A stretch of 64,000 bases of DNA, from contig KV919042.1 of assembly GCA_002049455.2 (NCBI GenBank), positions 1 through 64,000 of the forward strand, given 5' to 3'. The notes below the pieces were generated by a model. That model searched no databases. It had not been told where the DNA came from and saw nothing but the letters and a program-made list of their open reading frames with translations. Below, piece after piece: positions 6,971-64,000 of this stretch (position 1 is the stretch's first letter; every line of letters starts with the position of its first letter). A program made the translations under genes and the position numbers. Source of the stretch: Porphyra umbilicalis. Lineage: Eukaryota > Rhodophyta > Bangiophyceae > Bangiales > Bangiaceae.

Positions 6971-8082
6971 TTGCGTTGATCAATTAACAATCACCTGCCA
7001 CCTCTGGTTTGCAGCCTCCCGCGTGGGGAAGACCACCAGTCGATGAGGGCTTCAACATCAAATGAGGGAGATTCCTGTGGAAAGAAGTTGGTGAGCCGGT
7101 ACCCGGATATTACGAAAAACAGCTGACCATAGATCATGGCGACGGGAGCACGAGAGCGTACTTTTGCCGCAGTGTCGTTGACGGACGCCCTCTGTGATCG
7201 AGGCGACGTGCCCGCGAACGAGCGCCGTTCGTCTCCACCCTCCCCATGTGTGTATTATCCTCACCCGGTCGACGCCTAGGATGGCAGTCGGTTGGGGGAT
7301 AACGGTGCCCGCCCACCCCGAGGACCGTGTGAGCGCAACGTGGGCGGGGGCGCTGTGCCTCGCGTGCAACCCGCGGCGTCGGCGCTGCACGACGCGGGGG
7401 GGCGGGTTGCACACGCGGCGATCGTCTGTGCCCGTTTGCCGCCCGTGTGGTTGCGCGGGGAGACGAGTGGGGCGCATCTCGACGTCGGAGCTCACGCCGT
7501 TTTTGGTGCCGCCGCGCCGCTATCGCCTCCTTGTCCGATGGTCCCTGCGCGCGGACGCCCGCACGCCCACCACCTGTGGCGATGGTGCGGTGGAGGGGGG
7601 CGCGCGGCGGTGGGCCCGGCCCGCGTGTCTTGTTGTTTTTCCTCCTCGGACCTGCTCGGTCGTGGGGACGGTGCGAGGGGGCGCCACCGGTGTCGCGTCG
7701 CGCTGTCCACCGGCATCGGGGGTGGGAGCCGAGGGGGCACGGGCTCGTGCCGTGGTGCCACCATCCGTCATTGACTTGCGGCGGCGTCGGCGTATAAGAC
7801 CACCCTCAATGAGCGGGTCCAGCGCACCTGCGCGACGCCAAGACCGCGTCGTTTGTACGGCCTCTCCCTCCTGCCTGAGTCCGTACCAGTCGCCGCTGCT
7901 CCCCCCCCCCCCTTCTGCTGTCGGTGGGTGGTACGCCTGTGTTGGGCCTCCGCCATTGGCCGCCGGTTGGCGCCCTGACTACGCCCCTCGCCTTCTTCTT
8001 TGTCGGCACCTCGACGCACGTGGCCGTACGCGGGCGGGTGCCCCTCACGCTTGTTTCCATCGCCGTCAAGCGGGTAGTCAAG
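6971..8082. other. 5' flank of the lipoxygenase gene
   Basis: No gene is recognised. The lipoxygenase frame stays open upstream of its chosen ATG back to 7924, but only from a GTG. A TATAAGAC box-like string lies at 7791, about 290 nt before the ATG, and a C-run at about 7900; neither is strong promoter evidence. Confidence 0.35.
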
Positions 8083-16965: not shown

Positions 16966-18877
16966 ATGATGTCTCTGGGAGGGGGGGTGGTTATCATACA
17001 CTCCCCGCTCAAGGGCTCTGTGGGGGCCCTGTCCAGACGGAGTGCAAATGCACAAGACTTGAAGCGTAGCCGACCATTCCATTGAAACGTATCGCGCGCC
17101 GACAACGGTACGTGTCTCGCAGAGATGCGTCTTGCCGAATTTGTGGGCGGTACGCTGAATAATCAGTCAGCACTCTCTTTGTCGGCAGCGCACGGTATAC
17201 CAAAGAAGTGGACCATATGAGCGCAGGCAGTTGATGGTAGTCTCGTATGTCACTGACGCACAAAAAAGAGAAACACACGCGAAAGAGGCGCAATGCCTAG
17301 GACGTACAAGTGCCAACCGTGACCCGCGCAGTGCACTGCACCGTTCACGTCAAAAGAGATCTCGTGCGTTCGCATGCCTGGAAACTATAAGAGAAGAGCC
17401 GGGGCGCCCCTGGGCGAGTCGGCGAGGAGGGAGGCTGGAGGGGGCGGCAGTGAGGAAGACGGTGGGTGCGATTGCAAGGTCGCATGCTACGGGAGCCGTC
17501 ATGTTCCGACTTCGTCGTCGGCGCGTGCTCGCGAAGGTCGCGCCCGTGGATCAGGCTTGCGGTGGCCTCGATCCACAGCGTCGGACTGCCACGTAACTGT
17601 TCTGGGATCACCCGCAGCGGGTAGGAGCCTCCGCGTGAGATTGAACGGGACGCGATTCGTTCGAGGTCCGCAAGGCGGTGTTTTCGTGCGGCCGTGTCGT
17701 ACCACCGAACAACAACTCGGCACAAAGATGGCATGACATACGTATTGGCGCCGCCCACCACAGCTGACAGCATGTGAGCCCGTGTCATTTGGCACATCCC
17801 AGCACGACGTTCGTGCTTCAGCACGTCTTGTTATTGGCTCCTCCATCTGAGTCGGCTGACAAAGGAACCACACACTGTACCCCAGGCATGACGTGTGACA
17901 TTTGGCTGCCACGAATCAATCAGCTGCGCACGTGCTGAAAGAAGAGGCCGCCGGGCATTCCAGCGACGCTGATCATCTCTAACTTGTGACCCGAAGCCGC
18001 CTTCCCGCGCCTAGCTGCCCAGCGGTTGCTGAAAGCGGGCCGAATCGCTCCACTTTTAGCCTGCTTTCAGGCGGGCCACAAGTCGTAGAACTTGGGAGCC
18101 GTCTGGGAATGGCGAGGGTGTGCAGAGTGCCGATGAAATGGCCCCTGAAGCCTTGATTTGCCTGGGTTGTGATCGACTTGTAGCCTGCTTTAGAGGTGGG
18201 CTACAAGACGCGGAATCCGGTCGCCGTCTCGAGCCGTCTCCAACGAGTGCGTGACATGCAGACTTGTAGCCCACGTTTCGACCGCCCTGGCAGAGGCCGG
18301 GCTGCGGCCGGGCTCCATTTTGGGCTCCCGGCCTCCGTTTTGGCTCCACAGTACGGAAATCGGGCCCCAGTACGCACCAGTACCCCCCAAGTAGGGTGGT
18401 ACACATTCCCGACGATCGTCGGCGTAAACGTCGATTGAGTGATACATGGCAGCTCCACAGGCTGCCACCGTGCAGGGCCATGACGACCTGTCAGCAAATC
18501 ACACATGCAAGAATCACAGACGGGATTGTGAGCACCCAAACGTGCTGCACGGGTGGTGACGGCTGGCACAAGGCCGGGAACTTCATGGCTGGAAATTGAC
18601 GTGAGGGCGGTTTTCTCTTCCATGTTGGCCCGTCTACAGCTCTCGCGTACATCATGCGATCTACCTGCAACTTTGCACGAGACCAGCTGAGGGTCGGCCC
18701 CTCTGGTCTTGAGAAGCACAGCGTCTCTGCTAGAGCGGCTTACGCTACCCAGTCGGTTTTAAAGGGCTGTCAGAGACGTCGTGAATGCAGTTGCACCGGC
18801 CCCCCCCTCAGACAGGATGGAATCGGTGATCTGTATGTCGGGCCTCGTCGGAGCGACCCGCGATCGGCTCGCGGTCG
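16966..18877. other. Spacer with a small hairpin
   Basis: No gene recognised. At 18177-18207 the arms CTTGTAGCC and GGCTACAAG form a hairpin; a related string (TAGCCTGCTTTCAGGCGGG) starts at 18057 and TTGTAGCCCACG occurs at about 18265, so this is a decayed short repeat family. Confidence 0.4.
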
Positions 18878-21845
18878 TTGATCAACGCGTCTGTCATCTG
18901 TTCGGTCAAAGAGTCAGAGAACTACGTGCTCAAGGTGACGCCTGCCAAGGCGTCGGCAAGCGTCGCCTCAACACGCATAAAAGGCAAGGCGGAGCTGTGG
19001 CACCGCAGATTCGACCACTTGAGCTTCGAGAACCTCACGCGAGTGGTCGGGATGGTCGACGGGATTCCCGCTTCGGTGGCGGACGCCAAGCGCGTCATTG
19101 TCACGGTCTGCGTCCCGTGTGTCAACGGCAAGATGGCGCGTGCTCCGCACCATCGCTCGACTACAACGATCACGAAGTGCGAGTTGGTCCACACTGACGT
19201 CGCTGGGGCGTTGACGGAGTCGCTAGTCTGTTCAGTGTACCTCATGATGCGTATGAAGGACTCTACTGGCTTCATCACGGCGACGCCCATCAAGACCAAG
19301 GGGATGGTACCGGACGTCATCAAGGCCCGCATTACGCAGCTTGAGACCCTCACCGGGCTGAACATTAAGCGGGTGCGCCACGATGGCGCAAAAGAGTACG
19401 TCAGCCACGACCTCAAGGCGTGGTATGACAACAAAGGAAGCAAGTCGGAAAAGACAGCGCCGTACTCATCGCAGCAGAGCAGCAAGGCGGAGCGCGTCAA
19501 CTGCGACATTATGGAGCGCGTTCGCGCGGCACGGCTGGACGCCGGTGCGGGAGAAGAGCTGCGGGCTGAGGCGCTCTCTTCGGGCATCCACGTGCTGAAC
19601 CGGTCCCGCAAGGCGGGGCAAGATGTGACGCCCCTCGAGGCGCTGACGGAGCGACGCCCCGACGTGAAGGCATTTCGCACATATGGGAGAGCCGGGTCTG
19701 GGCTCTCAATCCCAAGCAGCAGCAGCGCAATCTGGAGCCAAGGACCGATGTTGGCCGCTTTGTTGGCTACACTGTTGGTGGAGATGCATACCGCATCCTG
19801 GCGGATAATGCAAACAAGATCTTCGAGCGCCGAGACGTACTCATGGAGGAGATTCCAAGCAAGACCATCAACAGGATGTCTGTTTTTGGGTCAAGGGCCA
19901 GTCCTCGCCTGACGGCGTGGACGGATTGTTACAAGGAGGACGGTGTGATGAACATGCTGGACGCGGAAGTATCCAGCGGGGACGAGTATGCTCCGCAGCA
20001 ATCTTGATGGAGCGACGGCGCGCCGGACAAGGAGACCGTCCATGACGCGGAACACGGCTATGATAATGACGCCAACGAGGACGCGGCGGCTCAAGAGGGG
20101 GACCAAGTGCGGCCTGACTCCACGACGGAGAGTGATGACGGCGGGGCGCAAAGGCGCCGCCGGTCCAAGCGCAAGCCGGCACCAAAGGTCAGCTGGTGGC
20201 AAAGCAACCCGAAGGCGTATGTGGCAGCGGGACTCTTTGGTGGCGCTATGTCTACCTGGGACCTGAGAAAGCCGCCGAAACACGCGAAGGAGACGCGTGC
20301 GCGCTCGGAATGGCCGCTGTGGAAGGCGGCAGAGAACGAAGAGTACCTGGCGCACAAGAGGCTTGGTACCTGGTCCAAGACCAAAAGCAACAACATGCGC
20401 AAGTATGTCAAGACTCGGTACGTGTACGACATCAAGCGCGGTTCAGAGGGTAGCGTGACGAGGTACAAGGCGCGCCTGGTTGCTCAAGGCTTCAACCAAG
20501 TGCCGGGGCGTGATTTTGACGAGACGCGGGCGCCAGTGCCCAGCTCAGCTACCACACGCGCAATTTTTCCGGTGGTCGCGGCCAAGGACTGGGACGTTCA
20601 CCACGTGAACGTCAAGATGGCTTTCCTCAACGCCAAGATGGACAAGGAGATGTACATCAAGCTTCCAGACGGCACCAAGCCGGGGGAGGCAGACGAGGTC
20701 TTCCGTCTTAACTTAGCTCTGTATGGGACACAGCAGGCGGGGCGTCTGTGGGGCATCAAGCTCGACAAAGAGCTCAAAGCTGTGGGGACGGTCCGGTCCA
20801 AGGTGGACTCGTGCCTCTACTCGTGGAGCCACCCGGTACACGGGCTGGTTTACATTTTCGTCTACGTGGACGATCTCATCGTTGCGGGCAAGGGCCTCGA
20901 CGGGGTTCAGGCGGTCCAGAACTCGGTGTCGGCGACGTTCGATGTGCGCGACATGGGGGAGGTCAATGACTTCATTGGCATGAAGATAATGCGAGACCGG
21001 GCGGCCAAGATGCTCCCCCTGAGCCACCCGGGGAATGTTATCGCACTCCCTGAGACGTTTGGGATGTCCAAATCCACGCCCATCAAGACACCAATGGTGT
21101 CCGGGGCCAAGCTGGCCAAGACGGGGGAGAACCTCTTGCCCGACGGCAACCGATATGCCGAACTTGTAGGCTCCCTGATCTGTCTGGCTACAGCGACGAG
21201 GCCGGACATTGCCTGTGCCATGGGCGTGCTGTCGCGCTACATGGCCTGCCCCGAAAAGGACCACATGCGCGCGGCTAAGGGAGTGCTCCGGTGCCTTCAC
21301 GGGGCTACGCGCCTCGGGGTCGCGTACGGCGCCGGAAAGCCTCTCCAAGGGTACGTCGACGCCGATTGGGCGGGCGACGTTGACGCTCGTCAGTCCACGA
21401 CGGGTTTCATCTTCACCCTTAACGGCGGGCCGGTCTCGTGGGCGAGCAAGCGCCACTCGACGGTGGTGACGTCGACGGCTGAGGCCGAGTACGTCGCCGC
21501 CGCGATGGCGACCAAGGAAGCCCTTTGGCTCCGCCAGACTTATAGGCGCTTGGCGTCGAAGGCGCTGCCGTTTCCATGGGGGAAGACATCCAGGCGTGCC
21601 TGGCGCTCGTCAACAACCCCCATGCAATGGGGCGCACTCAGCACGTGAACGTCGCGTACCATATGGTGCGCAATTACGTGGCGCGCGGCGACGTGACCTT
21701 TTAATTCCTTCCGAACGCTGATATGCCCGCGGACGGGCTCACGAAGGCGCTGCTGGGGCCGGCGTTCAAGACCTTCCGTGACGCAGCTGGGGTCGGGCCC
21801 GACCTGGGCACGGCGGCGGAAGCGCTGGAGCCGGACCCGGCGTGA
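18878..21845 (+). pseudogene. Ty1/copia retrotransposon pol, decayed
   Basis: Order of domains is that of copia: GAG-pre-integrase and HHCC zinc finger (LWHRRFDHLSFENL ... CVPCVNGK), integrase core with its acidic residues (HTDVAG, RHDGAKEYVS, SSKAERVN), the copia linker FVGYTVGGDAYRIL, reverse transcriptase with YVDDL at 20863-20877, then RNase H (YVDADWAGD, STAEAEYVAAA, ADMPADGLTKAL). Lesions: a frameshift near 19690, an in-frame TGA at 20005-20007, a second frameshift near 21560-21580 and a TAA at 21702-21704; the last frame ends at a TGA at 21843-21845. The 5' part (gag and protease) is missing, and no LTR was identified on either side. Function in life: reverse transcription and integration. 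This copy is dead. Confidence 0.9.
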
Positions 21846-38800: not shown

Positions 38801-40080
38801 CGTACTGTGCAGAGAAATCCGACGGAGCAGAGAGTTCCTCGTTTTTTTCTGGCGCCTTCAGCGCGCGTGAATCAAAACTGGCAGCAGACAGTCAATGCGT
38901 AATCCGGAGCTTGCTGGGGTAGGGGGTGGTGGTCCTCTCATTTGCTGCCCTGATTGTCGGCGCGCGTTTGGCCTCTCACGGGCCTGAGTCATGATGCCAT
39001 CCTCACGAGGCTTTCAGGACTCCAGACGGACACCTGTTCTGATCCGCTCGGGAGCTACACGTCCCGGGCCCAAGCGACGAGCTCTGGGGCTACAAAGGGA
39101 GCGTTGTGGTATTATCTTTTGAGGCAGCCAGTGGTCCGCCCCGTGGAGCCATCTAACAGACTCCCTGGGCGCAGTGAAGACACTCACAGGCGGTGCGACC
39201 GCGTGCGCACCAGTACTGCAATCAGGGGTCGGCGTTCGCTCCTGCCAACAGGCCGCGCTCCCCATCCGCCGACCCGACCACGCACGCTCCGTCATCGACT
39301 CGCCAAGCGCGTACTCTCCGTCACTCACTAACCGCCGTATTGCCCACTAGAAGTCGTAGTGATGCCGCATCCCGATCGCACGACGCCACTGTCGCTGTAC
39401 TGCGCCGTTTGTTTGACTAAGACGCCCGCTCGCGAGTAGCAGCCATTTTTTCTGACAGCGGTCATCGACTCGTGCGCACGCGCTCGCGTCATCTACAGGA
39501 CGAGCTGTCGCCACCTAGCTGCGCATGTTGTAGCTATTGGATCCGCTGAGCAAGCAACAAAATGCGGCTCTATCCCAGCTCCAGCCGGGCGGCAGCGATG
39601 GCTTCGACTCCTCCGTCTTTCCGCACGTCCCCTCCGCGGACGCCGCCACGCGCGCGCGTTCCGCCGTCTCTGCCACCCGGGCCGACCGCAGCTAGAGCAT
39701 CGTCACCCTCCCAACGACACGCGGACACTACCTCTCACATTGTGGCCGCTGCTTGTGGGTCGGCACGTGACGCGAGGGCTAGTGCTTCTGCGAGCCCGGC
39801 CGGCGCCGCGGTGATGCCGCAAGCCACTGGCACTGCCACTTTGCCCCTGATGGCCAGGGCGCGCCCTCACAACGACTCCCCCGTGTTCACTCCCCGCCCA
39901 CGCTACGGCCGGCGCGCACCGACGATCTCGAAGTCCCAATTGCCACGGGAATTGGGTAGCATCTGCACCGGGTGTATGAGGTCTCTGAGCGTTACCAGCA
40001 ACGTGAGTATGTGCCTCCGCGGTTTTCCATGCCCTTGGGATGTCCGGCCCGCGGCGCAGCCGGGCTGGGGCTAGCAGTGG
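35821..40080. other. Spacer left of the gypsy cluster
   Basis: No gene recognised. Contents noted: T-runs at 36098-36115, a long inverted repeat at 38367-38423 (listed separately) and, at 39562-40078, a frame from an ATG with Ser/Pro/Ala-rich composition. In an overlapping frame the latter gives LHRVYEVSERYQQREYVPPR just before the LTR, possibly the remnant of a gag or host gene cut by element A. Confidence 0.4.
38367..38423. repeat. Long hairpin-forming inverted repeat
   Basis: Perfect 13-nt inner arms CGAACGTACGCGG and CCGCGTACGTTCG flank a 5-nt loop (38380-38410). The symmetry extends outward imperfectly to 26-nt arms (GTGGTCACT on the left, AGTGATCAC on the right). Confidence 0.8.
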
Positions 40081-40808
40081 TGTGACGGTCCGTCACATGG
40101 CCCCCACACTCCGGGAACCAGATTTCCCGGAAATATGCCCCACTAACGCATGTTTCAAATTGTTGCGTTGGCGACCCACTTGTGATCATCTCGTGGCTCA
40201 CCAACCACAACCGGAACTCCAATACTTCCCTGGGATTCGTAACCCCCCCGAGCGGGCCCCTACTGAAGGGCCTAATTTTGTGTAAACCCAACTTGGATTA
40301 TCGACTTATGTTACTTTGTGCCCCTGACCCCGGGGCGCCGCGAGGGTGTCACGTAGCACCCTTCCCCCGCCTCTACTCAAGGCGGTATTAGAAGCTTCGG
40401 CCGTCCTCCGGCTTATGGGCCCAGTGGGCCCTGATGAGGGGGCTTTCCGTGGGTCCTTTGAGGGTGTCTGAGGAGGGTTTTCCGAGGGTGCTTTGAGGGA
40501 GTCTGGGGAGGGTTTTCCGAGGGTCCTTTGAGGGTGTCTGAAGAGGGTTTTCCGAGCGTCCGAGGGGAACGGATGGGATAAGAGGGTGCGGCGTGAGTGT
40601 CGCCTCGAGGCCTTCGACGCGGGCAAGTAAACTTCCGGTCACACAACTCGTGTTTGTCGCTCGGGGCGCCTTCCCCCGGTCGACGCCGTGCGTGTGTGCT
40701 CTTCGGGGTTTCCTTCCGGGGCGGGTATTCCCCGACAGCACTACCCGGCGACACGGTTTGGCTCGCCCCCCCCCCAACTGGGCGGGGTAGGCTGAGCGTT
40801 TTGTCACA
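40081..40808 (+). repeat. 5' LTR of element A
   Basis: 728 bp, from TGTGACGG to TTGTCACA, the same ends as the other two LTRs in the window. It begins with a palindrome (TGTGACGG-T-CCGTCACA). Three tandem copies of a 35-bp unit starting GGGTCCTTTGAGGG lie at 40451-40555. Confidence 0.92.
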
Positions 40809-40970: not shown

Positions 40971-43222
40971 ATGGCCGATGGGGGGGGGGATGGAGACCCC
41001 CCTGGTGTCGAGGTGCCTGGTGCCGGGGCGGATGAGATTAGCCCCCCGGAGGCGGATCGTCGGTTGACGATCGCCACACCAGTGCAGGCACCACGGATGC
41101 GGGTGCCCGCGGGGCGCGGACTTTGTTCCAACCCTTGCCCCCGGGCCTCGATCCGAGTGGGACTCGCCCCCCGGCAGGCGCCCCCTCGGGTAGTACTCAC
41201 CCCGAGGCGGTCCTGTCGGGTGCTGGCACTCATTTCGGCGTAGGACAGCTGCCCGACGTTACCACGTGGGGCGGTGGGTCTGTGCCACCACCGGCACGGG
41301 AACCTGCGGGTGGGAGCTCTAGTCGTGCTCCCCCAGGTTCACGGAGTGCCAAGGGTGCCCCGGCGCTTGAGCACGGCGCCGGGACCCACGGTATCGGTCC
41401 CCCGGCCCTCGGGCCCGGTGGCAGATCCCCTCTCGGTGCTTGGGAGGGGGGGGCGATGCCAGGATCGGCACGGGAGCCTGCAGACGGGAGCTCTAGTCGT
41501 GCTCCCCAAGGCTCACGGGGTGCCAGGGATGGCCAGGGTCTCGAGTGTCGAGACGCCGTGGCCGAGGTCGTTCGGTCCGAAGTTACCCGATCGCTAGTTA
41601 CGATGTTGAGGGGCTCTACGCCCAGGCCCGCTGAGCGGCGGGGCCGAGCCCGACGCTCTGCTCGTCGGCGCCGACGCGAGAGCTCGTCGTCGTCGTCGAC
41701 CACTGACGTCTCCCGCTCGGGGGACGAGTCAGCTGTTGCGGCCCTACTTGGTGCGTTCCGTGCTACCCCCCCGCCGTCGACGGTGAGGGAGGGCACTCGG
41801 GGTATTGACCCGAGGGCCCAACCGACTCCTGACTCGGCGGAGGGTGAGCGAGGCGGGGGAGCGGCGCGAGGGTTACCCCGGGGTATTGACCCGGGGTTCC
41901 CGACGCAACTCTCCTCCGCGACCGATCCAGAGGCTGGGGGGTGGCCTACTCAACCCACCCCGACACCTTCAACTCGGGTGGTGCCGCCCAAGATTGTGGT
42001 GAACCACCCGTCCTACCGGGTGATGTTCGATTGTGAGACCTACGCGCTAGACAACAAGTCGGTTGCCTACGCGCGGCGCCAGGCCCGTTCTCTGGTCCGG
42101 CGCAAGAAAGAGGTCGCTCAGTCCTTCGGGGTGAACGACGAGTGGGATGGTTCCCCCCCGGCCAAGGTCTTCCAGTTCTTGCGCAAGTTTGCCAAGGCCT
42201 GTGACGACAACAACATCTCCGAAGGCGAAGCCTTCTACATCCTCCAAGACTTCACGAAGGAACCTCTCAAGTCAGAGGTGATGATGGTTATGCCAACTCT
42301 CCGGGCGGGTAACCCCGGCGAGGTCACTTCATACTTTGAGCTCATCAACTGGATGATCCGGCGTCACGTCGACGAGGCCTCGGTGGCTACTCTAGTCGAG
42401 ACCCTGAAAGTCGCGGTCCAACGGGACGACGAGGACGAGTTGTCCTTCGCCGAGCACCTCCGCCGCCTCAACACCGAGTGCGGGTTCATGTACGGGGAGG
42501 GCGCCCTCAAGGGGCGCTTTGTGGAAGGTGTCCACCGCGCGGCGCGCGCCACTGTGCGCGAGCGCAACACCCCCGGCTTGACTGTGGCGGAGCTGGCTCG
42601 CGTCGCCCAGACTAAGGGCGACGAACACCTCTGGCTACGACTTGAGCAGCACAAGAAGCTGACCAAGGAGCGAGAAGCACTCGCGGAGGAGGCCCGTCTC
42701 CGGTGACAAGCTCGGGCGGCCGCCCTTCCCCGGATCACTGGGGGGGCGCGGGGTTACCAACCGCGGGACGCCCCCGTCCGGACCGTCGGGGCCGTGGGTG
42801 CCCCCACTCCGGGCTCCCGGTACAATGGGTCCCGACCAAAGACTCCGGGCGGCTCGACTCCCGGGGGCAAAGACATCCCGCGCTACCGCTCCCGACCGAG
42901 GGATGGGCCTTCCCGACCCAAATCCCGGTCGGAAGAGTACCCTTGCTGGCAGTGTGGCAAGGTGGGCCAATTGGCCGAGGTGTGCCCCGACTTGGACGCA
43001 CGCGTACGCGACCGATTGGCCATACCCAGTCGGTGGTCCCCTCTCGGGACGTCCTCGGGCTCCCGCGACACCCCGCGAGCGGGCCGTCGAGTAGCCGTGG
43101 CCAATCCCCACGAGGACTCCAGCCCAAGCGGCGAGGATTCGACGCCGCTTGAGAAGGGGGAACCGCAGACCGAGCCCGAGTGCGGACCCACCACCTCCTC
43201 TGAGTCCGAGGAGGGAAACTAG
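40971..43222 (+). pseudogene. Gypsy gag, element A
   Basis: Starts at the ATG at 40971 (MADGGGDGDPPG). A frameshift in a C-run near 41045 moves it to the frame that runs to 43222. A Gly/Pro/Ser-rich matrix-like N-terminus includes a poly-Ser stretch. A capsid (retrotransposon gag) domain follows at ~41990-42640: VMFDCETYALDNKS, NPGEVTSYFELINWMIR, GALKGRFVEGVHRAARATV. An in-frame TGA at 42704-42706 stands where element C has CGA, a C-to-T change. The zinc knuckle reads CWQCGKVGQLAEVCPD, with Gln where the metal-binding His should be. Gag packages the element's RNA in virus-like particles. This copy cannot make an intact protein. Confidence 0.85.
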
Positions 43223-43284
43223 TAGCCACCGGTGTTGGGCCCTCCCCGCGGCAACCGGTGGACCCAACCCGGGACGTGGATAAG

Positions 43285-46200
43285 ATGCCAGTACGCATCC
43301 TATCCCGACCCAAGGAGATCCGCCCCCGGGACGCACCCCTCCCGAAGGGGGTAGGCGGCCAGAACGTGGTGGCCATCCTGACGGGGTCCAACTACCAGGT
43401 GGCCAGTCGCGTCTGGCTAGACGCGGGGCGTGAGCTAGCCCTCCGCGTCATAGTCGACACGGGGTCGTGTGTCTCCCTAGTACGGGAAGCGCTACTCCCC
43501 CCGGAGATGGAGGTGGCGCCCTTAGACGCGGCTACCGCCCAGTTGTTTGACATGAATGGGGGACTCCTTCCCATCACGGGCACCGTGACTCTTACGGTGC
43601 GAGTCGGCACTTACTCCACCCCAGTCACGTGTGGGGTAGTGCCGGGCATGTCGGTCCCCCTGCTCCTAGGGACCGACTACACTGACGTCCGTGTCCCCAA
43701 CATTTGCGGGCCCAAGGGGTACATCTGGTTACTAAACGGATGTAGGGTCCCCATCCTCCATCGGGGTAAGACGGTGTCGTATGCCCGGGCGGACCAACCC
43801 CAGTCGGAGGCCGCTAGTGAGGCGGACACCAAGGTTCGCCTAGCACACGAGGTGGTTATACCCCCGCGGTCCCGGGGATACGTCCCAGTACAGACGTCAT
43901 TCCAAGGGAATGGGGTCATCACCCAGCGCCATCGAGTGTATGAGCGCCACCGCGTGCATGTTGCAATTGGCACCATGGACTGCACCGCCAATCAGACGTG
44001 GTGGGTGGAGGTATCCCATACGCGGAATACGAGTAAGCGACTCCCCAAGGGCATGGTCATGGGGCATATGTCGGCCTTCTCCGGTACGGTAGCCGCCATA
44101 TCCCGAGAGGACTGTGCTGCACTCAGCCCCAGTCCGACCACCGCGCCCGGCGCAACAGACCCCGTGGAGGAGCCTCACGTTCATACTTCGAACGTGCCCG
44201 AGGGGCTGCGGCCTCAAGTGCTCGCCCTAATGGAAAAGCACCGAGCCCTCTGGAGTGGGCAATTGGGCTCCATCAAGGCTACGGAGCACCGGATCGAGTT
44301 GAAGCCGGGCTCCAAGCCCGTCCGGCTCAACCCCTACCGGATGGGTCCCCGAACTAGGGAACTCATCAAGGCCCAAGTCGACCGAATGCTCAAGCTCGAA
44401 GTTATAGAGCCCAGCCAGAGTGAATGGGCTAGCCCGGTGGTACTCATCCCGAAGCCCGACGGGAGTCCCCGGTTCTGCATCGACTATCGGCAGTTGAACG
44501 AGCGCACAGTACGCGACTCGTATCCACTACCCCGGATGGACGACTGCCTCGACTTCTTAGGGGATGCACAGTTCTTCTCCACGTTGGACTGCAGCGCGGG
44601 GTACTGGCAGATCCCCCTAGCCGAGGAGGATAAGCCGAAGACGGCATTCACTTGCCACTGTGGGACGTACCAGTGTACGCGTCTTCCGTTTGGCCTGTGC
44701 AATGCCCCTGCCACTTTCCAGCGGGCTATTGACATGATCCTATCCGCAGTCAAGTGGCAGAATGTGCTCGTCTACTTAGACGACCTCATCATCTTCTCCG
44801 CCGATGCCGAGTCGCACCTGTCCCACTTGGACATGGTGCTCATCTTACTCGGGAAGCACGGGGTCACCCTCAAGGCACAGAAGTGCCACCTCTTTACTAA
44901 CGAGGTGCAGTACCTTGGCCATGTAGTCCGGCCAGGACGCTTGAGTGTGAACGAGAAGAACCTCAAGGCCATCAAGAAGGCCAGCTTCCCCCAGACCCAA
45001 ACCCAACTTAGGAGTTTCCTGGGGATGTGTAATGTCTACCGTCGGTTCACGGTAGACTTCGCAAAGACCGCGAAGCCGCTGAACAACTTGAACAGCGTAA
45101 AGCTTCCTAAGCGGTTGAGTCCCCCTACTCCGGAGGAACAGAACGCGTTCGACAAACTACGCGAACAGCTATGCCACCCGCCCATCCTTGCGATACCGCG
45201 CAAAGAGGGGAAGTACATCATCGATGTGGACGCTAGCTACGACCAGCTAGGGTGCTGCCTACTACAGCAGCAACCCGATGGCAAGTACCTGCCCGTAGGC
45301 TACTTCAGTAAGGGCCTACTACCGGCGGAGAAGAACTACACCGTCACCAAGATTGAGGGACTAGGTGTGGTTTGGGCGGTCGGTTTACTACGACCGTACA
45401 TCGAAGGCACCAAGTTCCTCATCCGGTGTGACCACAAGGCACTGAAGTGGATACTAACCACGACGGCCTGCACCAAAAATCGACTCAATCTTTGGCGCAT
45501 CCTCCTCTCGGAGTTCGACTATGATGTGGAGTACAAGCCCGGCCCCCAACATGCGGTGGCCGACGCTCTGTCCCGCATCCCGACTGAGGGGCTGGACACG
45601 GGACCCATCTCCCAGGAGATCCCCACAGTCGGGGTGACCACTCGATCGGGGGGGTACTCGATCCCCGACTCCCCGAGAACAGGGAGACTGCCCGCATACC
45701 CCTGGGCGAACTAGTCCAGAAGCAGGCGACAGACGAGTTCTGTCAGGGGGTCAAGAAGTTACTTGACACCCCCACACCCACGCGCTTCTACGAGAACGCA
45801 GACGGGTTGTTGTGTCGTCGCGGACACCGCGAGGGGACCCAGCAGGTACTGGTCCCCCAGTCCCTAGTCAAGGACGTATTACGGGCGGAGCACTCCTCCC
45901 CCTTGGCTGCGCATCCAGGTGGGACGCGCATGTACCAGACCCTGCGGGACCAATACTACTGGCCCTCGCTGGCGATGGATGTGTTCGGGTGGGTGGCAGC
46001 TTGCCCCACCTGTGCTAAGAACCGGCTCATGGGTACGCAGAGTAAAGCGTTCGTGAGGTTGTTCCCCGCGATGGAACCCTTCGCAGCGCTGGCCATTGAC
46101 TTACTTGGCCCCCTGCCCAGGACCCCCGAAGGATATGAGTATATCCTTGTTATTTGTGACCGATTTACTAAGGTCACTCGGGCGGTCCCGCTTCGAGACA

Positions 46201-47175
46201 TCACCGCTCTGGATGTTCTCAGCGCGTTCCTCGACACGTGGGTTGCTAGCTATGGGATCCCCGATTCAATTCTATCGGATAACGGACCCCAATTCGCTGC
46301 CGTACTCTGGCAAGGGGTGCTCAAGACCCTGGGTATTGAACCTAACTATGCCACCCCTTACCACCCACAAATTAATGGGCAGGTCGAACGGTTTCATAAG
46401 ACCTTAGTTAAGCAACTACGCCACTACGTAAGTGACCACGTAGTTACGTGGTCCCGATACTTAAGCCTGGTAGTAACGGCTTACAATTCGCAAGTGCATA
46501 GTAGCACCGGGCAGATCCCCTTTGCGTTCGTAAGCCCCCGACGGCTTACTCCCGTGGCCCTCGAGCGACTTACAGCGGGTACCGACCCCGGGGAGATAGT
46601 AACCCCGGGCGAGCCAAGGAGAATTTCCTCCAGCGCCTTGACTCCCTTATCCCCCTAGTACGGGAGACCATGGAGAAGGCACAGGCCCGGTACAAACGAG
46701 CATTCGACAAGCGCGTGCAGACTCGCCGCGAAGCCCTCCAAGTTGGAGACTGGGTATTCGTGAAGTCCCACGAGAACCAGGGGGGTAAGCTCGTCTTCAA
46801 GACACTGGGACCCTACCAGATCTTGAAGACCGACGGGCGTCGGCTTACCATCGAAAGTGACGATGGTATCCGGACCATCAATGGGAACCACGCCACCCGG
46901 GCCCCGGAACCACCCGAGGGGACCCGGCGTGGGCGCGGGCACTGACCGCGTGGCGGGTCCCGTCCCTCCCCTCATCGGCCAGTAAACCGATTGAGGCTGT
47001 CTTCGACCGCTTTGTCGGACAGGGGTACGATGACCAGGAGCGACTCATGCTCAAGGTCAGGTGGTTCGGGTATGGACCCCGGGAGGACTCCTGGCACTAT
47101 GTGGAGGACCTCCCGGCTGAGAAGGTCCGCCAGCACTGTGTGCGGCACCGGCTCACGATGAGAAGAAGGGTATAA
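43285..47175 (+). pseudogene. Gypsy pol, element A, with chromodomain
   Basis: First ATG at 43285, in a frame open from 43258. Domains in order: aspartic protease (VIVDTGSCVSLV, ~43450); reverse transcriptase, with YLDD at 44773-44784 and DCSAGYWQIPLAEEDKPKTA before it; RNase H (IDVDASYDQLGCC, DHKALKWIL); integrase, with an HHCC finger (EHSSPLAAHPGGTRMY ... CPTCAKN) and core residues in AIDLLGPLP, SDNGPQF and GQVERFHKTL; and a C-terminal chromodomain (~46981-47172; RWFGYGPREDSWHYVEDLP). Frameshifts near 45650, 46610 and 46920 break the frame, each one base relative to element C. Makes cDNA and inserts it; the chromodomain would steer integration to marked chromatin. Confidence 0.9.
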
Positions 47176-47297
47176 TACAACTAACAACCCCCAGTACGGG
47201 GTACCCCTCGCACACACCCCCGACAATAGATCCAACCCAACTAGGGACAAGCCCACAGGGGCCGGGCTGCGCATCACTGAGCGCCCCGGCGCCCCAC

Positions 47298-49639
47298 TCA
47301 ACCTGGGTACCTACTCCTACCCGGCGAGTGCGGGCGGTCGTCGCGAACGTACCCACCAAACTGGTCGTAACCCGAGTGGTCCGGGTACTCCTGGGCCGAC
47401 CCCCGGTCCGAGGGGCCCGGCCCCACGACGAGCGCGGCACCCTACTCGGTGCCGCCCCCGCCGCGGCGTACCCCCAACAGTGGAGGGGTAGCCGCCCCCA
47501 TGGTAGGGCGCGGCCGAGCCAGCAGGCTCCCCGGCGTACGGGGCCCGACTGGGCCCCCGCCCGCCGAAGCCCCCGCGGGCCCAGCCGCCACCCGCTGGCC
47601 GTGCCCCTCCAAGCGGGAGGCCATCTGGTACCCGATGGCCTCGGGGTGGTGTCCACCAGGAACTGCGCGGCTGCGGCAGACCGGGGGGACGAGGAGTCCC
47701 GCAGTACGGACCCGCCCCCCGGGTGACCCACGCCAGGGTATCCACCAGGGAGGCAACTATCGCCTCCCCATGGGCAGCCCTCAGCGCCCCCGCCGCACTT
47801 GGATAGGTGGTCGCCAAGGCGTGGGCGCACCGCGGGGTGACGTACCCCCAGCTGAGGCTCTGCCCCGCCCCAAGGGGCGGGTAGTACGGCACCCCCGGCG
47901 GGCAAACGTCGGACGGCCCGACCGCCCCGCGGGGATGCCCCCGCCCGGGTGGTCCGCCGGACAGCGCCCCCACGAGCAGGGGGGCGCTCGGCAGTACCTC
48001 GGGTACGCTTGCGCTGCTGGGGGACACTGGCCCCCGGCGCACCCCAACCCGAGTTGGGCGGGGGCGACGTCGCCGTTACCCCCGCCGAGTAGGGGTAGGC
48101 CAGGTCACCCAGGCCCTCACGGAGGCCTATGCGCCCGGCCACCAGGCGTTTGTCACAGTGGACAAACGCCCGAGGCGCCTCGCCCTCCTCCCCGCCAACT
48201 CGGCGGGCCAGGTAGGGCCCGGCCGCCTCCCAGTCCAAGGACTGGTGAAGGTCCAGCAACTCGCTGAGGTACGCGTGCGCGTCCGGGCCGGCCCCCTCCG
48301 CCACGTTGGCGAGGCGGAGCCCCACCAGACGCCCCACTATGGCGGCTGGCAGGTGCCAGAGGTACCCCTTAGTCCGGGCGGAGGCATACCACACCCCCAC
48401 TACCTCCAGCACCCACTGGGTAGCGAGGATGGCCGCCGCCGGGGTAGACTCCCCCGGCGGAGCGCAGTGCCAAAGTAGGCCACTATGCGCGGCATCCGGG
48501 CCGGGAACCCGAAGGCACCTCCATGGCCGACCACCAGGACGGCGTCGGGACGTAGTATGCCCGCCGCGTCGAGGTGTGGACCTGGGAGCTCTCCACTTGA
48601 GAGGCCCGCACCAGGATGCCCGACGCTTCCCGCACCCGGCGTTCGGTGCGGGCGTCCTGGTGGTGAAAGTGGGGGTCCGTCTCCCCCAAGTACGGGGGGG
48701 AGCAACACGCCCACTCCCACGCCACGACGGGCGGCACGTCGTCGGCGGTGGCCCCGTCCATAACATTGGACAGGCGCGCGGCCACGCGCTCCACCCACGG
48801 CGCGTCCCCCGCCTCCTGTAGGGCGGGGAGGTCCGTCGCCACCCCGGCAGGCAGTTCGTACTGCACGGGGTGGCGCGCCAGCCAGCGCTGCCAAGCCGGG
48901 CCCTGCTTGGGCAGCGGGATCGCAGAGTAAAGCGCCCGCAAGCGGCACTCCCCCATCTGACTGGGGGCAGCCGGGGGCGTCCACTGAACCAACGCCCCCG
49001 GCCCCGCAAGTCCCCCTCCCCCACTGCCGGGAGGCGCTCCCGGCGCGGCACCGGCGGGGGGGACTCCTGCTCCATGGGATCATCCCCCGCCTCGCCCGGC
49101 GCCGCTCCGCCGCCGGGGGTGGCCGGCCGGCTGGGCGGCAGCGGCACGCGCGCCGCCGCCGAGCGGACCCGACCGCGTCCTCCCCAGCCGACCGCGTCGG
49201 CGCACTCGACGCGCGGGAGGCCGACGCCGACCCCGCCGTCGACTTGGACCGGCGGGGGGGAGGCGGCGGTTGGGTTGCTTGACTCCCGCCGCCGAGGACT
49301 CCCGGCTCGGGGCGCGGCGTTGGCCTGGCGCGCCCGGCGGGCTGCCTTGCCCCGGGACGCCGCCACGGCCGCGCCACTTGACTTGGTGGCGCCGGCCGGC
49401 GTGGCAGGTGCCGACGCCGCCGCCCCGCCAACCCGCGGGGTGGCCGCCGTCGAGCCCTTGGCCTTGGGGGCGCCCATACTTCCCGGCGCCCCGCCCACCC
49501 GCGGGGACCCCGCCGCAGGGCTGCCCGACTTGGCCGTAGCCGACGCCGGCGTCCCACTCGGCGCCGGCGTCGCGCGCCCCGCACTTGGGGAAGCCATCTC
49601 CTCGGTCGGCGCCACTGCCGTCGACCGCGAGGAGGCCAT
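47298..49639 (-). CDS. Antisense accessory ORF of element A, frameshifted
   Basis: Not recognised as any known family. It lies 3' of pol and reads on the opposite strand, from the ATG at 49639 (MASSRSTAVAPTEE) to a TGA at 47298-47300, about 780 codons. Residues 1-~210 are Ala/Pro/Ser/Gly-rich. Then comes a structured core read in changing frames: WTPPAAPSQMGECRLRALYS, AWQRWLARHPVQYELPAGVA, RMPRIVAYFGTALRRG, WVLEVVGVWYASARTKGYLW, GAGPDAHAYLSELLDLHQS, AAHGEAIVASLVDTLAWV. A Gly/Pro-rich tail follows. At least five frameshifts break this copy, e.g. near 49003, 48500, 48440, 48000 and 47700. The reading frame at its 3' end matches element C and a third relic at 53-54 kb, which argues for a true protein. 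No membrane segments and no metal-binding motif. Confidence 0.6.
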
Positions 49640-50224
49640 AGCCGCCGCGCCCGGGTAGGGGGGCGGCGAGGGGGAGGGGGGTGCCCCGCGCACAGAGGGA
49701 CGAGGGGGAGGCTCTCAACTCGAGTAGCGGTGGAGGGGGGACGGTGACGGTCGGTAGTGGACGGCGTCCCCGTCTGTCCCCCGCCTACCCCCTTTTTATG
49801 AGCCCCTGTGTGGGGACAGGGGCCCTTACCCCGGGCCCCCTCAGCCCCACCCCGCGGGCCACTCCCCCTGGACGACTCCCCACTGGGGGGGGGGGCCCGC
49901 ACGACAGCCCCCCAGGTGGGGGGCGGGGGGGATGCCATACTGGGCACCCGCCCCCTGTTGGCCCACCGGGCACGGTTAGCGGGCCCGCCCCGGACACGCG
50001 GCAACACCCCTGGCCCCCGCTGCCGTGTCCACCGTACGGCGACGGCGCGTACCCCCTTGCCCCGGGGGGGCGCCCCCACGATCCGGGGCAGCCATCGCTG
50101 GCGAGGACCGGGGCAGCACCCGGGCCCCACACTGGGGAGCCGGCGGCTAGCTGTCCTGGCCCGCCCGCCACACTCGGGCGGGCCCGCCCCCCTGGCTCTG
50201 GGCCGCCGGGACGGCGACCCCTTT
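49640..50224. other. 3' non-coding region of element A
   Basis: GC-rich, with C- and G-runs; between the start of the antisense ORF and the polypurine tract. It would hold the promoter of the antisense ORF if there is one; no recognisable box is seen. Confidence 0.4.
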
Positions 50225-50236: not shown

Positions 50237-50957
50237 TGTGACGGTCCGTCACATGGCCCCCCACACTCGGGAACCAGATTCCCCGGAAATATGCCCCACT
50301 AACGCATATTTCAAATTGTTCCGTTGGCGACCCACTTGTGATCATCTCGTGGCTCACCAACCACAACCGCAATCCCAATACTTCCTGGGATTCGTAACCC
50401 CCCGAGCGGGCCCTACTTAAGGGCCTAATTTTGTGTAAACCCAACTTGGATTATCGACTTATGTTACTTTGGCCCCTGACCCCGGGGCGCCGCGAGGGTG
50501 TCACGTAGCACCCTTCCCCCGCCTCTACTCAAGGCGGTATTCGAAGCTTCGGCCGTCCTCCGGGTTATGGGCCCAGTGGGCCCTGAGGAGGGGCTTTCCG
50601 TGGTCCTTTGAGGGTGTCTGAGGAGGGTTTTCCGAGGGTCTTTGAGGGAGTCTGGGGAGGGTTTTCCGAGGGTCCTTTGAGGGTGTCTGAGGAGGGTTTT
50701 CCGAGGGTCCGAGGGGAATGGATGGGATAAGAGGGTGAGGCGTGAGTGTCGCCTCGAGGCCTTCGACGCGGGCAAGTAAACTTCCGGTCACACAACTCGT
50801 GTTTGTCGCTCGGGGCGCCTTCCCCCGGTCGACGCCGTGCGTGTGTGCTCTTCGGGGTTTCCTTCCGGGGCGGGTATTCCCCGACAGGACTACCCGGCGA
50901 CACGGTTTGGCTCGCCCTCCCCCCAACTGGGCGGGGTGGGCTGAGCGTGTTGTCACA
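50237..50957 (+). repeat. 3' LTR of element A
   Basis: 721 bp with the same ends and terminal palindrome as the 5' LTR, and the same threefold 35-bp tandem repeat at about 50600-50704. Its right edge cuts into a gag relic that reads on the minus strand. Confidence 0.92.
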
Positions 50958-52290
50958 AGACGTGCATCCAACTTGGGACACGTCTCGGCCCAGTGTCCCT
51001 TTTGGCCACACTGCCGACAAGGCTGAGTGTCCGGTCGATCATCGGAGTGGGCAGTCGTCGGTGTAGTAGCCGCGACTTCCGATTCCTCACCCTCGCCCCG
51101 CGCATAGTAGGCACGGGTACGTGGCGGGGTGCGAGGCACAAGGGGTTGCTTCGCCTGGTGCCGAAGGCTTCTTGCCTCGCTCGCCTTACGGGCTTCCTCC
51201 GCCCGCTCTTTCTGCTGCTCAGAGCGGAGCCAGCGAAACTCGTCACCCTTAGTCTGGGCAAGGCGAGCCAGCTCGGCCAAAGTAATGGCCGGCTTGTTTC
51301 GCTCACGTACTGTGGCGCGCACCGCCCGGTGAACGCCCTCCACGAAGCGCCCCTTCAGGGCGCCCGACTCATGGAGAAAACCGCACTCGGTACTCATCCG
51401 GCGCAGCCGTTCGGCGAAGGACAACTCGTCCTCGCCGTCCTCATGGGACGCTCGATTAAACTCTTCCACTCGAAGAGCGAAGGATGCCTCATCGGCATGC
51501 ATCCGGATCATCCAGTTGACAAGTTCCAAGTAGGAGGTCACCTCCCCAGGGTTGCCCCCACGCCGAGTAGGCATGACGGCCATCACCTCTGAGCGGAGTG
51601 GCTCGCGGGTCTGCAGAACATAGAAGGCCTCGCCTTCTGAGACGAAACTGTCGTCACACGCTTTTGCGAATTTACGCAAGAACTGGAAAACCTTGTGACG
51701 TGGGGTCCCGTCCCACTCGGATCAGGACCCGAAGGAGTGTGAGATATCCTTCTTGAGCCGACCCATGTTATGGGCCTGCTCGCGCGTGTAGAGAGTTGAC
51801 TTGTTCTCCAACGCGTACGTCTCACAGTCAAACATATCTTTATGCGGGGATTGTTCACTGTGCTCCGGGACGGTGCAGCTCGTACCGATGAGGCAAGACT
51901 GCCCCGGATGGGCGCATAGTCCGCGCCCGCACTACGAGGTTGCCCACGCGAAATTGACGCGTGGGTACGCCGCGGCGTTCAGAAGGAGTCCTACTGGGTG
52001 CCGGGTGTACGGATATAGGGGGAGTCCCCCCTGAATACTCTCCGTCTGAGGACTGCGACGTATAGACCAAATGACGACGGGGGGACGAGTTGCCACCCCG
52101 ACGCGTTCAGGCCCTGGGGCTTGGAACCGAAGCCACCGCGGGCGACCCCTGTGGGGATTGCGCCACCTCCGTCCGTACCATGTGGGTGATTGCGTGCACC
52201 AGCTCTGGACCGATCACCCCTCTGAGCCCGAGGAGAACGACTAGAGCTCCCACCCGGCGGCTCTTGTGCAAAAGTGGGCACATTCCAACC
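50958..52290 (-). pseudogene. Gypsy gag relic B, cut by element A
   Basis: Read on the minus strand this is a diverged relative of the A/C gag. A Ser/Arg-rich N-terminal part (QEPPGGSSSRSPRAQRG) precedes DMFDCETYALENKSTLYTRE. A TGA at 51722-51724 follows, then KVFQFLRKFAKACDDSFVSE, NPGEVTSYLELVNWMIR and GALKGRFVEGVHRAVRATVR. An intact zinc knuckle CRQCGQKGHWAETCP lies near 50990. The frame runs straight into LTR DNA at 50957, so the rest of this element has been removed or displaced. Comparison with A and C gives the family's unbroken knuckle. Confidence 0.85.
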
Positions 52291-53062: not shown

Positions 53063-54126
53063 TCAACGGCGGGCCGACGAAGGTCCACCCCACTCGAGAC
53101 CGGGCGGAACACGGGGGCGCTGCGCCGGCGGCTCCTCGTGGTAGACGTAGCGGTCGCGGTGATGCTGCTGCCGACGATTGGCACCACCGGCGGCCACGCC
53201 GACCTCGCGAAGGAGAACCGCGCGGATGCTGCGCCGACCGACCAACTGGAGAAAACTCCTCCAAGTGATGGGGGGAAACCCCGGGGTGGTCGCGGCCCAC
53301 TGGGCAATCGAGTCGCCAAACGACACCACGGTGTGGCTCAAGCCGGTTACCAGGGTCCCCATGGTGTAGCCGTGGAGTTCCCCGGGGTCGCAAGCCACGA
53401 TGCGCGCCAACCCCTGCGGGACGCGGTCCGAGGGAATGTGGTCGAGCTGGTCGAAGGCCACGTCGAGGATGTCGCGGTGTTCCACAGGGTCGAACGAGAC
53501 GATGAGGCTACCGCCGGAGTTGCCCCCAGAGGGGGCGGCGGATGCGGTCGGCGGCGACGGACCGGAGGGGACGACCCCGCTGCGCCCGTCACCACGGAGG
53601 AAGCAGGCGGCTCGGTCCCACCCCGGGGTAACGTGGGCTGCCGGCAGCTGAAACGGCGGCGGCCCAACCCCCACGGGCGGGCCGTAGCCACGCGCCTCAA
53701 GGATGTCCGCGGTGTACGGCAAGTCGAAGGGGCGAAGGTCCTCGGCGACCTTGGCGCGGGTTCCGTCGTCGTCCACCTCGAGGGAAGCCCAGATCCAACC
53801 TCGCGGTCCGGACGGTCGGTGCTACGCGCACGGAGGCGCTGATGGAAGGCCTCCGAATCGGGGAGCTGGTCCCGAGGTCCAACAACGCCCCGAGGGTGGC
53901 GGTCGCCTGCGCGTCGGGACCGCGGCGTTGACGCAGATTTTGGGCGGCCCGACGGAGCGATCCAATCGAGGAGACGCGAAGGGTAACGCCACAAGACCCG
54001 ACCGGTGCAAAACGTCTCGAGGATACGACGGCCGCCGCGAGGGCCCACTCGCTACGGAAAGCCCACGAGGCCGCCGCCCCGCAAAGGTCGTCCGTGGCGT
54101 AAGCGTGCACCCACGGGAGTTCCACC
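53063..54126 (-). pseudogene. Relic homologous to the antisense ORF protein
   Basis: Two adjoining minus-strand frames, 54126 to ~53790 and 53776 to 53063, make about 350 residues with no named family. Several blocks line up in order with the antisense protein of elements A and C. QRRGPDAQATATLGALLDLG pairs with GAGPDAHAYLSELLDLH, and EWALAAAVVSSRRF with QWVLEVVGVWYASA. LHGYTMGTLVTGLSHTV pairs with AHGEAIVASLVDTLAWV, and AQWAATTPGFPPITWRSFLQ with AQFLVETTPEAIGYQMASRL. It lies on the same strand as the pol relic to its right, but an N at 54127 separates the two, so their linkage is uncertain. Confidence 0.5.
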
Positions 54127-56294: not shown

Positions 56295-57023
56295 TGTGAC
56301 GGTCCGTCACATGGCCCCCATACTCCGGGAACCAGATTCCCCGGAAATATGCCCCACTAACGCATATTTCAAGTTGTTCCGTTGGCGACCCACTTGTGAT
56401 CATCTCGTGGCTCACCAACCACAACCGCAATCCCAATACTTCCCTGGGATTCGTAACCCCCCCGAGCGGGACCCTACTTGAGGGCCTAACTTTTTGTAAA
56501 CACAACTTGGATTATCGACTTATGTTACTTTGTGCCCCTGACCCCGGGGCGCCGCGAGGGTGTCACGTAGCACCCTTCCCCCCGCCTCTACTCAAGGCGG
56601 TATTCAAAGCTTCGGCCGTCCTCCGGGTTATGGGCCCAGTGGGCCCTGAGGAGAGGGCTTTCCGTGGGTCCTTTGAGGGTGTCTGAGGAGGGTTTTCCGA
56701 GGGTCCTTTGAGGGAGTCTGGGGAGGGTTTTCCGAGGGTCCTTTGAGGGTGTCTGAGGAGGGTTTTCCGAGGGTCCGAGGGGAACGGATGGGATAAGAGG
56801 GTGAGGCGTGAGTGTCGCCTCGAGGCCTTCGACGCGGGCAAGTAAACTTCCGGTCACACAACTCATGTTTGTCGCTCGGGGCGCCTTCCCCCGGTCGTCG
56901 CCGTGCGTGTGTGCTCTTCGGGGTTTCCTTCTGAGGCGGGTATTCCCCGACAGGACTACCCGGCGACACGGTTTGGCTCGCCCTCCCCCCAACTGGGTGG
57001 GGTGGGCTGAGCGTGTTGTCACA
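56295..57023 (+). repeat. 5' LTR of element C
   Basis: 729 bp, TGTGACGG to TTGTCACA, nearly identical to the LTRs of A. The 35-bp tandem unit is present three times at 56666-56770. A primer-binding site like that of A begins at 57026. Confidence 0.92.
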
Positions 57024-63522: not shown

Positions 63523-64000
63523 CTACTCCCAACCCGGCGAGTGCGGGCGGTCGTCGCGGACGCACCCACCGAGCTGGTAGTGACCCGAGTGATCCCCCGG
63601 GTACTCCTGGGCCGACCCCCGGTCCGAGGGGCCCGGCCCCCACGACGAGCGCGGCGCCCTACTCGGTGCCGCCCCCGCCGCGGCGTACCCCCCAACAGTG
63701 GAGGGGTAGCCGCCCCCATGGTAGGGCGCGGCCGAGCCAGCAGGCTCCCCGGCGTACGGGACCCGACTGGGGCCCCCGCCCGCCGAAGCCCCCGCGGGCC
63801 CTGCCGCGACCCGCTGGCCGTGCCCCTCCAAGCGGGAGGCCATCTGGTACCCGATGGCCTCTGGGGTGGTTTCCACCAGGAACTGCGCGGCTGCGGCAGA
63901 CCGGGGGGACGAGGGGTCCCGCAGTTCGGACCCCGCCCCCCGGATGACCCACGCCAGGGTATCCACCAGGGAGGCAACTATCGCCTCCCCATGGGCAGCC
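63523..64000 (-). CDS. Antisense accessory ORF of element C, 3' part
   Basis: Continuation of the antisense ORF family, open without a stop from the window end (64000) to a TAG at 63523-63525, about 159 codons. It reads AAHGEAIVASLVDTLAWV, RSAAAAQFLVETTPEAIGYQ, a Gly/Pro/Ala-rich tail and VRDDRPHSPGWE. Element A encodes the same tail (VRDDRPHSPG) in its matching frame with mostly conservative changes, though A is broken elsewhere. The start lies outside the window. Function unknown. Confidence 0.65.
   Translation of the reverse strand, partial: AAHGEAIVASLVDTLAWVIRGAGSELRDPSSPRSAAAAQFLVETTPEAIGYQMASRLEGHGQRVAAGPAGASAGGGPSRVPYAGEPAGSAAPYHGGGYPSTVGGYAAAGAAPSRAPRSSWGPGPSDRGSAQEYPGDHSGHYQLGGCVRDDRPHSPGWE

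Follow-up and report, generated by a model that had tools for sequence, protein, structure and literature searches.

Downstream of pol in a gypsy-type retrotransposon, on the strand opposite to gag and pol, lies a long open reading frame (ORF), which raises the question of whether this frame is a protein gene or a by-product of base composition, and of what its product might do. We examined it in a window of 64,000 nucleotides (contig C282), and searched the genome of 83.8 Mb in 665 contigs. Elsewhere in the window, a lipoxygenase gene (7879-10833, plus strand) was recognised, whose relatives carry PF10604 and PF00305 and whose best named relative is from Pyropia vietnamensis (55%), closer matches also existing. 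By its sequence, this gene alone would place the host among the bangialean red algae. Fragments of a Copia-type pol were seen by eye, from the translation, at 18830-21648 (plus strand).

The ORF belongs to element A (Table 1), a Ty3/gypsy element with a pair of long terminal repeats (LTRs) with TG..CA ends and the order gag, reverse transcriptase-RNase H, integrase. Because the two LTRs enclose the sense gag-pol, the antisense ORF can be placed between pol and the 3' LTR, on the strand opposite to gag-pol, which bears out the initial annotation in putting it downstream of a gypsy pol. The gag was recognised from its place and from a CCHC-like knuckle seen by eye at 42707-43222, not from Pfam, a search of 41042-42706 having given no match. 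The protease match within 43204..45714 was weak and under the Pfam cut-off (gag-asp_proteas, 0.032). Inspection of the flanks by eye (40061-40080 versus 50958-50980) found no matching pair for a target-site duplication despite LTR identity of 96%, and element A may be a product of recombination between copies. Each of its LTRs carries a tandem array of 3.7 copies of a 35-bp unit (40435-40561 and 50583-50710).

Table 1. Coordinates of element A, of its antisense gene and of related pieces; positions are those of the window unless a stretch (L) is named
Feature	Position	Strand	Remarks
Antisense accessory gene, frameshifted copy (element A)	47298..49639	-	homologues intact: L011:3078-5423:-, L014:3134-5479:-, L024:3249-5609:+
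Conserved core, first part (WW..EVP.G motif)	48507..48992	-	phase 2; 96.9% identity to P0001 residues 219-380
Conserved core, second part (ILA.QW..EVV...LWHLP)	48074..48424	-	phase 1
C-terminal helical domain region	47470..47934	-	phase 0; 61% to P0001 residues 573-728
Gly/Pro/Tyr-rich tail	47316..47645	-	phase 2; 64% to P0001 residues 670-780
TATA-like CATAAAAAGGGG, candidate internal promoter	49785..49802	-	~160 nt upstream of antisense ATG; motif match only
Element A 5' LTR	40081..40808	+	TGTGAC...GTCACA; 96.3% identity with 50237-50957; ends inspected
Element A gag core region	41942..42661	+	inside open stretch 41042-42706; 91-92% identity to gag of two other copies
Element A pol, reverse transcriptase and RNase H	43204..45714	+	Pfam RVT_1 1.7e-35, RT_RNaseH 8e-27
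Element A pol, integrase	45588..46658	+	Pfam Integrase_H2C2 8e-17, rve 2.6e-12
Element A 3' LTR	50237..50957	+	purine tract immediately 5' of LTR
Diverged gag pieces	51206-51844; L012:7074-7757; L020:272-940	-; -; +	window piece outside 3' LTR
Family-4 antisense gene fragment, third element in window	53066..54125	-	72.5% to L047 protein residues 299-544
Element C 5' LTR	56295..57023	+	antisense gene of element C starts past window end
Element C antisense gene, 3' part	63523..64000	-	open; tail matches

The minus strand of element A is free of stops from 47153 to 49714, a run of 853 codons that includes an ATG at 49639. GC content here is 71-79%, high enough in principle to keep long frames open without any coding function. 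In 1000 dinucleotide shuffles of 47153-49714, however, the longest run averaged 254 codons and never exceeded 553, so that high GC alone is insufficient to account for the run observed. Phases were assigned against P0001, an intact protein from the stretch L014. The matching pieces of copy A were found in phase 1 (49639 to about 49000), phase 2 (48992-48507), phase 0 (48513-48448), phase 1 again (48454 on), phase 0 (47934-47470) and phase 2 (47645-47316). As a consequence of these phase changes, the 853-codon ORF has the second part of the conserved core in frame but not the first, which is read instead in a 198-codon ORF at 48483-49079. Copy A is thus a decayed, frameshifted mosaic, and its ORF mixes native and off-frame stretches. 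The claim of about 780 codons opposite gag-pol holds as far as the open run and its ATG are concerned, but the family protein is spread over three phases. That much of the ORF lies off the native frame would suit an artefact of high GC; against it stand the shuffles, the conservation of homologues at the protein level across families, and the codon-level test of selection described below, which refutes it, and we give this explanation next to no weight.

The genome was searched with the first part of the conserved core of copy A as the query, and the best 150 of 265 candidates were scored, their identity falling from 100% to 28%. The copies sampled from these were either top matches or picked by hand for open frames, and are biased toward intact and conserved ones. 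Twenty stretches of family 1 (L009-L028) were hand-picked, mostly for open frames, so that frame counts among them do not represent a fair sample. All three core pieces lay in one open frame in 13 of the 20 (L010 and L012 with part of core 3 only), and at least three (L011, L014 and L024) were uninterrupted between the conserved ATG and stop, with 781, 781 and 786 amino acids. Family 2 (P0022) had a 679-aa ORF in 12 of the 13 distinct copies read, and one of 469 aa in the remaining copy; these copies were the top search matches plus three chosen ones, two of which repeated places. The antisense gene is present in at least four pol lineages, with families 1 to 4 sharing the core at 28-35% identity (family 3 being L029 and family 4 being L047, comparisons with the latter covering 130-184 aa).

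Further copies lie in the window itself. The stretch of element C was said to be cleanly open with a conserved tail, which is correct up to the window end; past it (L028), however, core 1 is divided over two frames. The family-4 fragment of a third element also matches the L047 protein at 41-42% in overlapping pieces within residues 187-373. The sole N of the window (54128) falls at the junction of this fragment with a reverse transcriptase piece on the same strand, the reverse of the usual arrangement and possibly an assembly join. At the three places given in Table 1, a diverged gag piece (67-72% to the gag of element A) shares the strand of the antisense gene and lies past its start.

Purifying selection in the antisense frame was evident from the substitutions. 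The three full ORFs compared in family 2 gave pairwise dN/dS of 0.20-0.24. For the N/S ratio, we used a null in which a real copy served as background and the changes were redistributed among identical trinucleotides in 2000 draws. Across six comparisons that share some of their copies, family-2 N/S was 0.23-0.47 of this context-matched expectation, and none of the 2000 draws was as low as the observed value in any of the six; in one comparison, one change, placed singly on the background, would create a stop. Variation in family 2 was highest at the third codon position of the antisense frame. Pooled values of dN/dS in family 1 were 0.52 for core 1 (19 copies) and 0.38 for core 2 (21 copies), compared with 0.36 for reverse transcriptase (RT; 13 copies) and 0.39 for integrase (IN; 15 copies), with the proviso that some of these copies carry stops and that decay shifts the ratios toward 1. 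The loci used for these ratios were chosen by hand or were the leading matches of protein searches, which favours conserved copies. Core 1 of family 1 is under less constraint than pol. The initial annotation had named two outcomes that would speak against a gene, namely a lack of any intact antisense frame and dN/dS near 1. Neither occurred, since frames of 781-786 aa and 679 aa are intact and substitutions show a strong bias toward synonymous sites relative to the context-matched null. The antisense ORF family is therefore almost certainly a selected protein gene.

The same evidence bears on the proposal that the antisense transcript rather than a protein is what matters, pairing with the genomic RNA and limiting copy number via double-stranded RNA. 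Such a role has been put forward for plant antisense ORFs (PMC7264820), and the convergent layout would permit double-stranded RNA. The synonymous excess, the intact long frames and the third-position variation nevertheless point to selection at the level of codons, making this alternative improbable.

Linkage of the antisense gene to its carrier was surveyed with 150 integrase matches scored of 1259 candidates, partners being counted among the antisense matches listed, with repeated places omitted. Among these matches, at least 111 of the 150 integrase copies were followed by an antisense gene, on the opposite strand, no more than 4 kb downstream. The other arrangements within 4 kb were rare in the same listed set (downstream same strand, 2; upstream opposite, 1; upstream same, 0), as were those at 4-8 kb (downstream opposite, 6; downstream same, 3; upstream opposite, 4; upstream same, 2). 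The 19 family-1 stretches of the 20 in which an integrase was present all had the two genes on opposite strands, separated by 983-1019 bp in 18 cases and by 2481 bp in the other. The layout is that of an aORF-3R, an ORF between pol and the 3' LTR and antisense to gag-pol, the 3' LTR having been located for element A only. The gene is also retained as an aORF-3R would be, by the count of at least 111 in 150 and by dN/dS of 0.38-0.52 against 0.36-0.39 in RT and IN.

The remaining 39 of the 150 integrase copies had no antisense partner among the matches listed, and seven of these have more than 1000 open pol codons. Of these seven, the one that was read, on contig C9, gave no antisense match at E<=0.01 in the 2.6 kb past its integrase, so that the antisense gene is absent from at least one element whose pol has a long open frame. 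Copies of this kind would depend on others, or the function would be dispensable; partnerless integrase copies count against the antisense gene being essential. On C9, in a close relative of element A (L050, C9:52900-55400), a tandem array with periods of 225 bp and 51 bp occupies the slot of the antisense gene (1395-2281).

The antisense protein begins with a disordered N-terminus rich in Ser, Pro and Ala, followed by the conserved core, a basic linker rich in Arg and Gly, a helical domain, and a tail rich in Gly, Pro and Tyr. The core carries W-W-x3-EVP-x-G and LW[HR]LP-type motifs. The linker lies between the core and the helical domain in the modelled proteins of families 1 and 2, and a similar place is indicated by sequence in family 3. 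Residues 606-688 of P0001 were predicted to be helical, with blocks of pLDDT 79-95 and one block of 68; the models were otherwise of low confidence (mean pLDDT 46-48) and poor outside these residues. The earlier description of a disordered N-terminus, a structured core and a Gly/Pro tail was right in outline. So was the statement that the protein resembles no known family: Pfam, PDB and fold searches gave nothing convincing, the model used for the fold search being poor outside residues 606-688, and Pfam across 72 members revealed no family similarity and no Gag family.

These searches bear on the origin of the protein. Its layout, with a disordered N-terminus, then a helical core and helices at the C-terminus, is reminiscent of gag-type proteins, and its constraint is not far from that of pol, as might be expected if the antisense strand encoded a second structural protein, either capsid-like or another component of the particle. 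The element, however, has its own gag upstream, and hhalign of the antisense protein against it gave a probability of 0.3-0.4%, the gag profile being weak (three sequences, Neff 1); nor was a capsid among the fold matches listed for the poor model. A structural role is accordingly quite unlikely, and the suggestion of a gag-like origin finds no support in the same comparison, made with the weak three-sequence profile. A captured host protein, also suggested, was not borne out. Two protein searches, with about 8000 candidates scored in each, yielded 20 and 61 relatives, all without Pfam domains, and the only relatives found lie on JGI/ENA contigs. Among them, P0002 and P0006 are by eye almost indistinguishable from the L021 and L025 proteins, so that some of these contigs may come from the same species.

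The protein families have drifted far apart. Identity of the antisense protein is 31% between families 1 and 2 and 35% between families 1 and 3. For integrase the values are about 57% to 58% (the latter over 262 aa) and 79% (75 aa), and RT keeps about 64% between families 1 and 2. Judged by these identities, the antisense protein diverges faster than integrase and RT. Fast divergence (31% and 35% where integrase keeps 58% and 79%) would fit an arms race in which the protein counters silencing of the element by the host, through chromatin or small RNAs, and the basic linkers would suit a nuclear protein. Disordered accessory proteins commonly diverge fast as well, however, and the protein has neither similarity to a Pfam family nor a named relative; the silencing suppressor suggested by the initial annotation is neither borne out nor contradicted by these results, and we consider an anti-silencing factor unlikely, if less so than a structural protein.

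The explanation that we favour overall, as somewhat more likely than not, is that the ORF of element A is a decayed copy of a true antisense accessory gene whose product is predicted to be a nuclear, nucleic-acid-binding regulator. The gene would be transcribed from its own promoter inside the element, toward pol. The TATA-like CATAAAAAGGGG is a candidate for this promoter: it is found in all nine family-1 copies whose start was located by exact motif, one having one A fewer, although copies of the same family are not independent for such a count. A similar motif is present in one of three family-2 copies, and it is missing upstream in the other two and in the family-3 copy. The protein most probably enters the nucleus and binds nucleic acid, and may regulate expression or integration of the element in trans, a role already put forward for the antisense products of Grande and Retand. 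On the nuclear regulatory mechanism itself our judgement is evenly balanced.

Antisense ORFs were said to be known in plant Ty3/gypsy elements, and Grande, RIRE2 and Retand are indeed precedents (PMC7264820). Between pol and the 3' LTR they are described in these three, in PvRetro13 and, among fungi, in Boty (PMC7264820); in the Retand lineage, TRP28 is reported in that interval in 97% of clusters (PMC11963269), and gene23 of Grande is reported to be expressed from its own promoter and to encode a protein found in the nucleus (PMC7264820, PMC11963269). In plants, LTR retrotransposons with antisense accessory genes have been well described, the function of these genes being reported as not known (PMC7264820). 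The elements described here resemble the angiosperm aORF-3R in the Gypsy-type carrier, the slot between pol and the 3' LTR, the antisense orientation and the retention in most copies (PMC7264820, PMC11963269). Tandem arrays are reported for Retand in the same interval, where one was seen here on C9. Retand differs in that its host is not a red alga and that no TRP28 was matched here: TRP28/Transposase_28 (PF04195) gave no match in the genome at E<=10 and none in 72 proteins at E<=0.1. Among the control genomes of that search, a match was seen in E. coli alone, under the cut-off. Retand is also described as a non-chromovirus (PMC11963269), whereas a chromodomain is present in at least some of the carriers of this genome. 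Pfam Chromo exceeded the cut-off about 430-440 bp past the integrase match at C19:373683, C42:172643 and C136:141601, the first two being paired with the antisense gene; it was under the cut-off in family 1 (E 0.19), and none was found in one family-2 copy, whose stretch ends short.

Two further comparisons extend to an algal element and to a retrovirus. The ORF of REM1 contains a PHD finger, and HBZ of HTLV-1 is a bZIP factor much shorter than the algal antisense protein. REM1 of Chlamydomonas reinhardtii is likewise a Ty3/gypsy element of an alga, has been termed a chromovirus and includes a reverse-oriented reading frame; the part in reverse frame is described as a truncated integrase that keeps only the GPY/F module and the chromodomain (PMC2774666), whereas no Pfam domain was found in the protein studied here. 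HBZ shares antisense coding in an LTR element, and its nuclear localization is reported (PMC11963269); it was compared in sequence through Pfam only. Boty of Botrytis cinerea and Sclerotinia sclerotiorum has an antisense ORF between pol and the 3' LTR (PMC7264820), but is fungal and likened by layout alone, not by protein sequence.

Our literature search found no report of an antisense accessory ORF from red algae. Since the layout is that of Grande, Retand and Boty while TRP28 was not found, the arrangement is of a known kind and the protein family appears to be new. We suggest, tentatively and with somewhat more doubt than confidence, that the slot between pol and the 3' LTR was filled independently by unrelated antisense proteins in red algae, flowering plants, green algae and fungi, unrelatedness being judged solely by the absence of TRP28. 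If so, antisense expression at this slot would solve a general problem for Ty3/gypsy elements, and the red algal solution would be a new protein family retained while at least four pol lineages diverged. The red algal lineage offers an independent case far from flowering plants, with unrelated sequence, many intact copies and clear codon-level selection, and comparison with TRP28 proteins would separate the features general to the slot from those of one protein.
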